Below are positions 36,271 through 39,887 of a stretch of 39,887 bases of DNA, in pieces (positions within the stretch are counted from its first letter, which is position 1; each line of letters starts with the position of its first letter). The translations under genes and the position numbers were made by a program. This DNA is from Pseudobutyrivibrio sp. (GTDB taxonomy: Bacteria; Bacillota; Clostridia; Lachnospirales; Lachnospiraceae): contig JAILKL010000104.1 in NCBI GenBank assembly GCA_024693775.1, forward strand, positions 1-39,887, written 5' to 3'. Below the pieces are notes generated by a model. It saw only the letters and a program-made list of their open reading frames with translations, had not been told where the DNA came from and made no database searches.

Positions 36271-37449
36271 ATGCCAAACAATGAAATCGTGTTGGAAAAC
36301 ACACCCCCTATGGCTGAGTTAGGACTTATTCCTCACAAGAGCTGTACAGCTATCACTGAGAAGGTTAATGAGTATCTCCTTAATTGGAGACAGGAACGCA
36401 AGAGCGATCAGTCAATCATTACTCTTGCCGGATATCGCAGCGATTCTTACATCGTAAATGCAGATTGTCCACGTTTTGGGTCAGGTGAAGGTAAAGGCGT
36501 TATCACACAGTCAGTTCGAGGTCTTGATTTATACATCCTTGTTGATGTTACAAATTACAGCCTCACATATACTGTATGTGGCCACGAGAATCACATGAGT
36601 CCTGATGACATCTATTGTGATCTCAAGCGTATCATTGCCGCAGCTATGGGCAAGGCAAAACGCATCACTGTAATTATTCCTTTCTTATACGAAGGACGTC
36701 AGCATCGTCGTAGCAGCCGTGAGTCACTTGACTGCGCTATGGCACTTCAGGAACTTGTAAACATGGGTGTAGACAACATCATTACATTTGATGCTCACGA
36801 TCCACGTGTACAGAATGCTATTCCACTTCACAGCTTTGAGACTGTATCTCCTACATACCAGTTCCTAAAGGGTATCTTTAAGAACTGCAAGGACTTAAAG
36901 CTCGACAACGACAACCTTATGATCATCTCTCCTGATGAGGGTGGTACAAAGAGAGCCGTATACATGGCATCTGTTCTTGGCGTAAACGTTGGTATGTTCT
37001 ACAAGCGTCGTGATTACAGCCGTATCGTAGACGGACGCAATCCAATCGTTGCTCATGAATTCCTTGGAAACGATGTAGCAGGCAAGGACGTAATCATCGT
37101 AGACGACATGATTTCATCTGGTGAATCAATGATCGACGTAGCTACAGAGCTCAAGAAGCGTAACGCAAAGCGTATCTTCGTTGTTGCAACATTCGGCCTC
37201 TTCACAAACGGAATGGCCAAATTCGACAAGGCTGTAGCAGACGGCATCATCTACAAGGTTGTAACAACAAACCTTACATACCTTACAGACGAAGTCCTCA
37301 ACAAGGACTACTTCATCAAGTGCGACATGTCAAAATACATCGCATACATCATCGATACACTCAACCACGATTGCTCAATCTCAGAGCTTCTCAACCCATA
37401 TGGTCGTATCGAAAAGCTTATCACCCGTTACAAGAACGGCGAATACTAA
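36271..37449 (+). CDS. prs: Ribose-phosphate pyrophosphokinase (long Lachnospiraceae-type form)
   Basis: 392 residues; most Prs enzymes are near 315. It makes PRPP for nucleotide, His and Trp synthesis. Key parts: the catalytic flexible-loop region IIPFLYEGRQHRRSSRESLD (about 135-154), ITFDAHDPRVQNA, and the PRPP-binding loop VIIVDDMISSGES at 274-286. Extra length lies mainly in the first 60 residues and the C-terminus. Codons here are clearly C-ending (AAC, GAC, TAC, ATC) compared with neighbours, as expected for high expression. RBS AGGAGC lies upstream. Confidence 0.95.
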   Translation: MPNNEIVLENTPPMAELGLIPHKSCTAITEKVNEYLLNWRQERKSDQSIITLAGYRSDSYIVNADCPRFGSGEGKGVITQSVRGLDLYILVDVTNYSLTYTVCGHENHMSPDDIYCDLKRIIAAAMGKAKRITVIIPFLYEGRQHRRSSRESLDCAMALQELVNMGVDNIITFDAHDPRVQNAIPLHSFETVSPTYQFLKGIFKNCKDLKLDNDNLMIISPDEGGTKRAVYMASVLGVNVGMFYKRRDYSRIVDGRNPIVAHEFLGNDVAGKDVIIVDDMISSGESMIDVATELKKRNAKRIFVVATFGLFTNGMAKFDKAVADGIIYKVVTTNLTYLTDEVLNKDYFIKCDMSKYIAYIIDTLNHDCSISELLNPYGRIEKLITRYKNGEY

Positions 37450-37454
37450 AAATC

Positions 37455-37481
37455 AAGCACCGCAACTGCGGTGCTTTTTTT
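37455..37481 (+). terminator. prs terminator
   Basis: AAGCACCGCA (37455-37464) pairs with TGCGGTGCTT (37467-37476) and seven Ts follow. Textbook Rho-independent terminator. It abuts the giant palindrome. Confidence 0.92.
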
Positions 37482-37490
37482 ATACCCTAA

Positions 37491-38091
37491 GCATGCATCT
37501 CCCGCCATTCTACTATCTATTTCACCTCCGTCCCACCCAAAGGGCCCACAGCGCCCGCCATAAAAACTCTCAAAGAATTAAGATTATCTAAGTGAGCAAT
37601 CGCGTATGTCTATTCACAGGTGTTCTTCTGACGGTTTTACAATTCTGGCAGGACAGTTCGTACAAAGCAGACACTCATAACAAATAGTAAATAAGGTACT
37701 ACAATCCATGTACCACACAGGTGCCTGATTTTAAGTGTAGCCTTAGTAGCACAGAAGAGGATTACATAGATAACAGACACGCTGAGCCATGGACGGCGAA
37801 GCGAGCTCAAGCTGAACATGGACGTGAATTTGAGCGTTGTCTGTTATCAAGTAATCCCCTTCGTTGTGCTCCTTAGGCGAAACGACCCATGAAGGCAAGC
37901 CTGTGTGTCGTACATGGTTGTAGAACCTTTTTAAGTAACTAAAAGTGTCTGCTTAGTACGGACAGTCCCTTCGAATAGTAAAACGCGCAGAAGTACACCT
38001 GCACATACTCGATTTTGCTCACTAAGATAATCCAAAATTCTCCTCGAATGTTTTTATGACGGGCGCTGTGGTCCTTGGATGGGACGGAGGT
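37491..38091 (-). repeat. Giant imperfect palindrome, copy 1 (candidate large structured RNA)
   Basis: The gene-free stretch after prs is one long inverted repeat centred near 37808. The left arm from 37524 (ACCTCCGTCCC) pairs with the right arm ending at 38091 (GGGACGGAGGT). Examples of matching blocks: 37552-37567 with 38048-38064, GCAGACACT (from 37666) with AGTGTCTGC (37944-37952), GATAACAGACA (37769-37779) with 37838-37848. Indels and mismatches are spread along the rod. At the tip are two hairpins: CGCT/AGCG with a 16-nt loop (37784-37799) and GCTCAA/TTGAGC with a 19-nt loop (37811-37829). Given as minus because its tip order matches copy 2 on the reverse strand. No convincing protein gene lies inside. 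Confidence 0.85.
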
Positions 38092-39406
38092 AAGTTTTAT
38101 GCTTTAACAAGGGCGGGGCGGGATTTGGGGTTAATTTGGGCGTAAAAAAATCAGAGGATATTTCACCTCTGATTGATTCAAAATATATAGCTCCTGCTTC
38201 CTCGTCCACCTGGTAAGATAAATCAAACAGCTTGCAAAAATCCTCTGCTGTCAAACTAAACAAAGGCCGGTTATCCGGGCTGTTGTACATAGTTAGCGGA
38301 ATCTTTTCCCCGTCACGCTTCACCACAACATCCAGTATTTTCTGCTTTCCAACCTCATCACTGTCACGGTATTTGCCGGTCATCACCCACGTATGGTCGC
38401 CAATGGTCCACCGCGACTCTAAATCCATCCTATCGCCTTGCTCCTGGGCTTTTGCATCCACAATTTCATAGGTACCACCTAAATGGTCCACGTACTCGGA
38501 AATCACCAAGGCCGGGCTCCCCCATGAACTCTTGACAAATCCGCAATCGCACACCATCATGTAGCTTTCTGCGTCATAATCGTAAAAAGAGTATGCATAA
38601 TCATCCGTAATCAATCCATAGTACACATATGGACTCTCGTTATTGTCATAGAGCATCTCCACGTCGTCCAGATAAATGTGCTCCAGCTTTGATGCATGAG
38701 CCGAGGATAATTCTTCATCCAAGCCTTCATTTGCAGATGCTTCCAATTCCCCGTCTTTGATACCCTGGGCCACCTCCTTACGAAGTGTCGAAGTTATTTT
38801 CTCCAGACTATCATTCGAACCATCAATGTCCGTTCCATAAAATACCTTATATTGCGCATTCTCTGTTCCTTCACCGGTAAAATAAAGGTGACAATATGGG
38901 TGGGACTGCATCAACTCCTCTGAGTTATACTGCAACTCTTCCCGATAACTTCTATTGGCCTCATAGATGCACTTCGCGGCTACATCGATGTCCTCAGTGG
39001 AACACACCTTGATATTTCCTTTTTCATCCTCCTGTACCGAAGCAAATACTTCCTTCATCTTCGGCAAATAGTACTCATGTACCTTTTCCCAGTAATTGTC
39101 ATCAATTTTCTTCTGATACCAAAGTGTCGCATCCGATGTTGGAATTCCAACGCCCATGCGATAGCTTCGCACCGTGAACTCCAAATCCCGCTCTTTGGAG
39201 GAAAAGGTGTAGTCCACCTCACGTGGGGACTCACTGATGTTCTCCGTTTTTATGATTTTCACACGCTCATCGCAGAGTTCTGCCACATAACGCTTCACTG
39301 CATATTTGGATGGCACTGAGCCGTCCGCCCGACATCCCACACACACCAAGGCACTTAGTAGCGCCAGCGTACATGCCATGCTCTTTTTCCAAAATCCCCT
39401 CATCAT
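38054..39406 (-). CDS. Unknown lipoprotein, C-terminus running into the giant palindrome
   Basis: 450 residues from the ATG at 39406 (or 39403), which has GGTGGG seven bases upstream; a GTG at 39418 is in frame but has no RBS. The signal peptide (MMRGFWKKSMACTLALLSAL) ends in VCVGC, a plausible though not classic lipobox. The mature part is acidic and Tyr-rich (YVYYGLITDDYAYSFYDYD) with no family I recognise. The last 30 or so residues (from FFTPKLTPNPAPPLLKHK) are encoded by the outer flank and right arm of palindrome copy 1, so the original C-terminus was probably replaced. It is the only gene between the two palindromes. Confidence 0.7.
   Translation of the reverse strand: MMRGFWKKSMACTLALLSALVCVGCRADGSVPSKYAVKRYVAELCDERVKIIKTENISESPREVDYTFSSKERDLEFTVRSYRMGVGIPTSDATLWYQKKIDDNYWEKVHEYYLPKMKEVFASVQEDEKGNIKVCSTEDIDVAAKCIYEANRSYREELQYNSEELMQSHPYCHLYFTGEGTENAQYKVFYGTDIDGSNDSLEKITSTLRKEVAQGIKDGELEASANEGLDEELSSAHASKLEHIYLDDVEMLYDNNESPYVYYGLITDDYAYSFYDYDAESYMMVCDCGFVKSSWGSPALVISEYVDHLGGTYEIVDAKAQEQGDRMDLESRWTIGDHTWVMTGKYRDSDEVGKQKILDVVVKRDGEKIPLTMYNSPDNRPLFSLTAEDFCKLFDLSYQVDEEAGAIYFESIRGEISSDFFTPKLTPNPAPPLLKHKTYLRPIQGPQRPS
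38118..38150 (+). repeat. 33-bp direct repeat, copy 1 (3' side of the lipoprotein gene)
   Basis: Matches 39467-39499 at 25 of 33 positions in the same orientation; the core is AATTTGGG followed two bases later by TAAAAAA. It lies in the last coding part of the lipoprotein gene next to the palindrome arm. Confidence 0.55.
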
Positions 39407-39441
39407 TCTTCTTCCCACCTATTTTCTATAAATACCACACA

Positions 39442-39499: not shown

Positions 39500-39887
39500 C
39501 ATGCGTCTCCCGCCCTTCTACTATCTATTTCACCTCCGTCCCATCCAAGGGCCCACAGCGCCCGTCATAAAAACATTCGAGGAGAATTTTGGATTATCTT
39601 AGTGAGCAAAATCGAGTGTGTGCAGGTGTACTTCTGCGCGTTTTACTATTCGAAAGGACTGTACGTACTAAGCAGACACTCTTGGTTTTTCTCTAGAAGG
39701 CTCAACAAGATATATCCCACGCAGGCTCTCTCATTGGCCGTGCAGTCCAAGAAGCAAGACGAAGTAAATTACTTAGCCAACTGGCACCATGCCAGATTCA
39801 CGTCCATGTTCAGCTGGCATTTGCCTCGCCGTCCATGGCTCGGCATGCCAGTTGGCTATGTAATTCACTTCTGTGCTTCTAGAGCTT
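39499..39887 (+). repeat. Giant imperfect palindrome, copy 2, cut by the window end
   Basis: The first 44 nt (GCATGCGTCTCCCGCC...) match 37491-37534 at 42 positions. 39531-39690 matches the reverse complement of 37944-38090 nearly base for base (about five differences). Past GCAGACACT the sequence diverges, yet it ends in the same tip design: basal helix AGCCAACTGGCA (39775-39786) with 39846-39857, hairpin ATGCCAG/CTGGCAT around an 18-nt loop (39796-39813), and TGCC/GGCA around a 16-nt loop (39826-39841). Only about 30 nt of the returning arm is inside the window. No gene is seen here. Confidence 0.85.

Follow-up and report, generated by a model that had tools for sequence, protein, structure and literature searches.

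The window, i.e., the 39,887-nucleotide stretch of a Pseudobutyrivibrio sp. genome analysed here (contig JAILKL010000104.1 of assembly GCA_024693775.1), contains two copies of the same element, one between two convergent genes and one at the contig end. To the left of copy 1 lies prs (36271–37449, plus strand), encoding ribose-phosphate pyrophosphokinase, with PF13793, PF00156 and PF14572 all above the Pfam cut-off. To the right lies a convergent open reading frame of 454 amino acids (38054–39418, minus strand) for which a Pfam search gave no match. The original prediction concerned the tips of the two copies. However, in copy 1 the tip caps a far longer hairpin, an imperfect palindrome of about 680 bp that spans approximately 37472–38154, with its centre at 37809; the two arms measure about 337 and 345 nt. 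Thus, the feature is much larger than first claimed. The minimum free energy of the region 37450–38160 is −332.8 kcal/mol, compared with −187.1 ± 7.1 kcal/mol in 20 shuffles (z-score −20.6), and a strand-symmetric alignment of the two arms scores 110, while five shuffles score at most 14.

Each of the two genes has a terminator-like hairpin at the border of the palindrome. The T-run of the prs hairpin (37455–37476, plus strand) forms the start of the left arm in the arm alignment, and it pairs with the T-run of the hairpin belonging to the right gene (38149–38174, minus strand). Here, the T-runs and a few adjacent bases pair (15 of 19), but the terminator stems do not. The right open reading frame, crossing the terminator-like hairpin of its strand, terminates within the right arm, so its final residues are encoded by the element. 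Copy 2 is represented by its left arm and tip (39500–39887, the start being approximate and placed by left-arm sequence in common with copy 1), because the contig stops at 39887 and truncates the right arm. The arm pairing of this copy can be measured in the window over 64 and 67 nt only.

Both tips are members of a known Rfam family, TwoAYGGAY (RF01731), in which a basal helix carries two hairpins, each with an AYGGAY loop. The scores are 59.0 bits for copy 1 and 58.8 bits for copy 2, against a gathering score of 43, and the covariance model matches from position 1 to 168 on the plus strand in copy 1 (37731–37887) and on the minus strand in copy 2 (39754–39878). The tip of copy 1, a basal helix with two hairpins, covers 37769–37848 on the plus strand, and its two loops, both ATGGAC (37789–37794 and 37818–37823), align with the loops of RF01731. 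In copy 2 the tip covers 39775–39857 on the minus strand, where the loops are again ATGGAC (39802–39807 and 39831–39836). It had been stated that no described RNA has such a tip; this does not hold after the Rfam check, and the motif is already present in a table of PMC2864571. A novel RNA family is therefore rejected, as both copies match RF01731 above the cut-off. A clear hit to a known family is also one of the outcomes that the original prediction had named as refuting it.

The shared segments and complementary flanks that had been predicted at these two places are found in the sequence. The shared segments are, however, more than simple loops. Aligned to RF01731, each contains an inner stem that closes an AYGGAY loop, read on the opposite strand (plus in copy 1, minus in copy 2). 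It is also correct that the helices of the two copies differ while pairing is kept, and that this is not a random repeat. The extent of the change was overestimated. Instead of fully replaced helices with more than 20 pairs changed on both sides, an ungapped comparison counted from the loop-proximal end gives double-sided differences in 10 of 21 pairs (4 of 11 in the basal helix, 4 of 6 in the loop-1 stem and 2 of 4 in the loop-2 stem). Nor do the three helices have to change at once, as mixed forms exist among the 18 tips of the same genome; L001, for example, combines the basal helix of copy 1 with the loop-1 stem of copy 2. The GCTCAA stem is found only in copy 1 (L007) among these 18 tips.

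The motif was described in 2010, and it is treated as an RNA in the relevant parts of PMC2864571 (a table row), PMC4333381, PMC11701678, PMC7657543 and PMC11661157, the last being a 2025 preprint that still calls it relatively unexplored. The passages on the motif do not describe a long palindrome, and compared with TwoAYGGAY as presented there, the outer stem found here is hundreds of bp longer, has copy-specific ends and is strand-symmetric. A literature search on Butyrivibrio palindromes, on long palindromes that lie between convergent genes and on covariation combined with template switching gave no match among the titles and abstracts covered, with most subscription papers lying outside the search. 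The tip motif is already known, while its setting in a long palindrome looks new. To our knowledge, no transcript of the element is known.

The element is dispersed, and consists of a conserved TwoAYGGAY tip that centres a long imperfect DNA palindrome, often between convergent genes. The genome of the window has 18 RF01731 matches, which is an upper bound on the copy number because six contigs end at most 20 nt from a match, so that two matches may be halves of one copy. The six contigs of this genome (G000) that end so close to a tip match are C10, C114, C115, C28, C74 and C43, the window included, and palindromes seem to break assemblies. They are not merely artefacts of broken assemblies, since palindromes also lie on contigs of 3.4 Mb (L134) and 2.7 Mb (L144). 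Within the genus, a match is present in 27 of the 29 genomes, with 0 to 49 matches per genome. The two genomes without one are G001 and G013; in G001, whose assembly consists of one contig with a stated completeness of 100%, the absence is likely real. When matches at E 0.001 or better are counted, the family has 46 carriers among 298 genomes, 44 of them over the Rfam cut-off, and a phylum sample has 50 among 398, of which 34 exceed it. In the 113 uncut copies of the genus, those of the window's genome included, the two arms extend over a median of 331 and 333 nt; most arms are shorter in the wider family.

The site downstream of prs can be followed through the genus. A long inverted repeat is present there in 6 of the 29 genomes (scores 71–161). 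Three genomes are left out of the comparison (L214, together with L208 and L210, of which the last two are too short), and 20 of the 26 examined sites have no long inverted repeat with a centre within 800 nt (best score at most 16), only a short gap. At five of the six occupied sites (L192, L193, L196, L204 and L205), but not in the window, the outer ends of the palindrome carry mirrored terminators, with 42–54 identical columns of 52–80. L205 has an inverted centre relative to its close relative L192 (score 195 inverted, 47 direct), and its outer arms are missing on both sides. At L196 (from G020) the palindrome is long, and the TwoAYGGAY tip is replaced by an ordinary hairpin.

Orthologous copies, defined by both flanks matching, form 21 cross-genome pairs. 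The tip has the same orientation in 11 of these and the centre is inverted in the other 10, corresponding to inversion at 6 of 12 shared sites in our own grouping of the pairs; L192/L205 is an additional inverted case. In the 11 same-orientation pairs we counted the columns that pair in one copy, taken as the first, and have an aligned counterpart in the other, setting aside 425 unpaired and 265 gapped columns. Of the counted columns, 2189 are unchanged and 180 are changed on one side (46 to G.U, 39 to A.C and 95 other), while 81 are changed on both sides and pair and 21 are changed on both sides and do not. When the changes on the two sides are tested for independence, omitting L294/L320 and with two sites counted twice, 92 columns are changed on both sides where 22.0 are expected, and 73 of them are still Watson-Crick (10 pairs, 8 sites). 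These 73 mirrored changes are clustered, with 29 neighbour gaps of at most 3 nt against 9.1 expected (maximum 17 in 500 draws). One-sided changes also cluster, though mildly, 55 against 37.5 expected (maximum 51 in 500 draws).

The comparison of L135 with L282 illustrates a block-wise change. The flanks and the central approximately 400 columns are near-identical; in the mid-arm a block has been replaced on both arms, so that the block differs between the two genomes yet pairs within each of them. A search with the block from L135 in the 29 genomes gave no strong match but its own mirror arm, the next best having an E-value of 0.0185, and no donor copy was found among 157 copies or in the 29 genomes.

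From these comparisons, we suggest that most of the helix covariation around the conserved tip is probably made by DNA copying from arm to arm through template switching. During replication, a polymerase would switch template between the arms, and a change in one arm would be copied into the opposite one. Through such copying the palindrome could perfect and extend itself, and the centre would occasionally be inverted. With a single long switch, sequence flanking one gene could be copied across the element, which would explain the uptake of host terminators. The compensatory changes in the helices would then come mainly from arm copying and not from selection on an RNA fold. According to the part of PMC8604942 on the subject, template switching at inverted repeats homogenises arms, inverts spacers and gives multinucleotide changes. 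We prefer template switching because all three published signs are present in the palindromes, i.e., mirrored changes beyond independence, multinucleotide clusters and inversion of the spacer. In this respect the elements resemble inverted-repeat homogenisation and quasi-palindrome correction by template switching (PMC8604942, PMC7202029), and homogenisation of long inverted repeats is likewise presented as well known in PMC8604942. However, the cases tabulated in PMC8604942 have arms of 7–16 bp and come from yeast genes, whereas here the median arm is about 330 nt and many copies with one conserved centre exist in a bacterial genome. Several observations weigh against arm copying, namely the mild clustering of one-sided changes, the unpaired terminator stems at the prs site of the window, a slight G.U excess among isolated arm mismatches in the genus (134:103) and the lean of the genus tips to the sense strand.

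If the pairing were kept for the sake of an RNA, it should tolerate G.U but not A.C. The arms do not behave in this way. The ratio of G.U to A.C mismatches is 64:59 in the 18 copies of the window's genome, 553:598 in 109 other copies of the genus and 72:73 in 30 copies from the wider family, and for isolated mismatches it is 18:12, 134:103 and 17:17, respectively, at most a mild G.U excess. With a looser arm alignment the ratios become 491:546, 4935:4882 and 1586:1786, the last being an A.C excess (p 0.0006), compared with 531:239 for SRP RNA. The consensus pairs of 29 SRP sequences contain 458 G.U and 15 A.C; this control replaced a first one based on symmetric local alignment (27 G.U, 13 A.C), since that alignment broke the SRP helices. 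When the elements are folded without the tip, the sense strand is favoured in 42 of the 105 copies of the genus, 5 of the 8 from the window's genome and 16 of the 27 from the family, as opposed to 29 of 29 SRP RNAs. RNAalifold of whole elements from five genomes gives 65/89, 59/53, 49/49, 15/34 and 72/52 G.U cells on the sense and antisense strand, against 458/37 for SRP RNA. The apparent G.U excess over A.C in these whole-element alignments (65:25 and 59:9) is read as a bias of the method, because the reverse complement gives a similar excess. One of 30 SRP loci and two of 24 loci from the phylum are truncated and left out, and as copies from the same genus are related, the counts above are not independent, which also applies to some of the ortholog pairs. 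No RNA strand bias is seen in the pairing of the arms.

Arm copying would account for the stems; the tip calls for a separate explanation. Its loop sequence recurs across genera, so it is probably selected and probably read by something. One candidate reader is CsrA. Read-through or dedicated transcripts would present two ANGGA loops that titrate the protein, with the stem as a scaffold, a role that is compatible with arm copying and that we regard as possible, although we lean against it. In CsrA sponges of the CsrB/RsmY type, GGA motifs are found in hairpin loops. The GGA loops are the likeness to these RNAs; here, however, there are two sites only and the stem is strand-symmetric. The AUGGAC loops fit the ANGGA hairpin-loop criterion, and PMC4333381 matches TwoAYGGAY to the CsrA site and proposes the link to such sponges. 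CsrA is present in 28 of the 29 genus genomes. Among the 298 family genomes, 44 of the 46 carriers have it, compared with 107 of the 252 others (Fisher 1.2e-12); in the phylum sample, the corresponding figures are 48 of 50 and 244 of 348 (Fisher 2.3e-5). Carriers are taken here at E 0.001 or better, the phylum overlap was read by eye, and three carriers belong to both samples. The carriers without a CsrA match are G168 and G294 in the family and G489 and G688 in the phylum. However, flagellin fits equally well, with a match in 45 of the 46 carriers of the family, and the two proteins coincide in 149 of the 298 genomes. Motility is thus a full confounder, and the co-occurrence with CsrA is set aside as proof. 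A search for promoter signals in the window found 3 against 4.1 expected from shuffles, none above chance.

It could also be that a hairpin or cruciform is selected at the DNA level, for example as a barrier to replication forks, supercoils or convergent transcription. The strand-symmetric pairing agrees with this, as does the genomic setting: genes are convergent around 5 of 7 copies in the window's genome, 12 of 28 in the genus and 11 of 28 in the family, in total 28 of 63, compared with 13 of 201 adjacent gene pairs, or 10 of 100 with gaps of at least 30 nt, in 240 kb of G003. For these counts genes were called mechanically, so some short open reading frames may be spurious, and copies with one geneless flank were left out (11 of 18, 1 of 29 and 2 of 30, respectively). 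Several tips lie midway between two stop codons, at distances of 284/287 and 285/288 (one shared site), 189/189, 310/309 and 145/145 nt. In several copies the arm pairing starts at or beside the stop codons (L127, L128, L129, L140 and L151 being the stronger examples), while in the gene-end alignments of L123, L137, L003, L163 and L183 the pairing is weaker or starts later. However, clustered mirrored change and flipping of the centre are not predicted by DNA-level selection alone, and the 20 of 26 prs sites that lack a long inverted repeat mean that the structure is not needed there. We therefore consider such selection unlikely to be the main cause of the pairing.

The original prediction took the paired changes as a sign of selection on RNA structure, i.e., a transcribed RNA would need its helices, and single changes would later be compensated. 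RF01731 is indeed listed in Rfam as an RNA family, and PMC7657543 and PMC11701678 report covariation in support of it; its loop sequences recur across genera in the alignments. In addition, the sense strand of the tip folds more stably in 95 of 105 genus copies and in 8 of 8 from the window's genome; in the family, however, this is so in 15 of 27 only. The G.U cells of the tip in RNAalifold are 45/10 (sense/antisense) in the genus, 4/14 in the family and 7/25 in the phylum. G.U is scarce in the tip stems of the family, with 4 G.U and 8 A.C in 424 cells, and a geometric hairpin rule gives 8 G.U and 15 A.C over four sets, where the SRP cells are too few to serve as a control. The strand signal of the tip alone is mixed, so the tip may have a role as RNA. 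For the arms, the observed symmetry is not what selection on a single RNA strand would predict; such selection is disfavoured, and it also has to face the lack of a G.U excess, the clustering of the changes and a centre that flips relative to the genes between relatives. Convergent read-through that makes RNA from both strands could hide a strand bias. As an explanation of the paired changes, selection on RNA structure is quite improbable, and the claim is unsupported by these comparisons.

Mobilisation by a Y1 (REP-associated) transposase that acts on the hairpins, as in a REP/REPIN-like element, would fit the dispersal of the hairpins, their varying number (0 to 49 matches in 29 genomes) and the existence of orthologous sites without the element, but it is very improbable, as Y1_Tnp was not found in 19 of the 29 genus genomes, including that of the window (assembly 82% complete) and G008, which has 49 matches. 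A necessary link to the Y1 transposase is rejected, since only 10 of the 29 genomes have a Y1_Tnp match. REP elements and REPINs (PMC3116915, PMC3733652) are likewise dispersed extragenic palindromes; however, REPs are 20–40 bp (PMC3733652), whereas the elements here are far longer, have another loop sequence and do not require the transposase.

Template switching between the arms, the preferred explanation of the covariation, leads to a wider and more tentative proposal, to which we would give somewhat less than even weight. TwoAYGGAY might not be primarily an RNA but the conserved centre of a family of self-perfecting DNA palindromes ("mirror elements") that copy their arms, host terminators included, and flip their centre. 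Covariation is a main line of evidence for conserved RNA structure. In this family it occurs without RNA strand bias in the long stem, together with mirrored changes that come in clusters and a centre that flips. If the DNA palindrome reading is true, the covariation that brought TwoAYGGAY into an RNA database would be largely a product of replication. Other families of "structured RNA" that lie on inverted repeats could then share the flaw, and a test of strand symmetry would detect it. Comparing G.U with A.C, or sense with antisense folding, would be a simple control for RNA-discovery pipelines. If arm copying is the cause, these very long, dispersed quasi-palindromes would also offer a natural collection for tracing template switching from species to species. 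For the motif itself, a testable anatomy is supplied.

A pattern scan of GTDB genomes gave at least 104 stretches. It is not taken as evidence on the family, because many matches (48 of the 99 analysed) lie inside open reading frames of at least 100 amino acids and Rfam called RF01731 in 1 of the 18 loci submitted (L109). Among the matches listed, compact repeats with two GGA-loop hairpins are found in Marinobacter, Saccharospirillum and other gammaproteobacteria. The basal helix of these is copy-specific but complementary (L023, L028, L033, L039, L056, L081 and L097, also L046 and L118), and none of the first seven reached the RF01731 threshold in Rfam. Also among the matches listed, planctomycete or "Kuenenia" bins contain GCC-ATGGAT-GGC hairpins flanked by GA steps (for example L019, L021, L024, L061 and L073).
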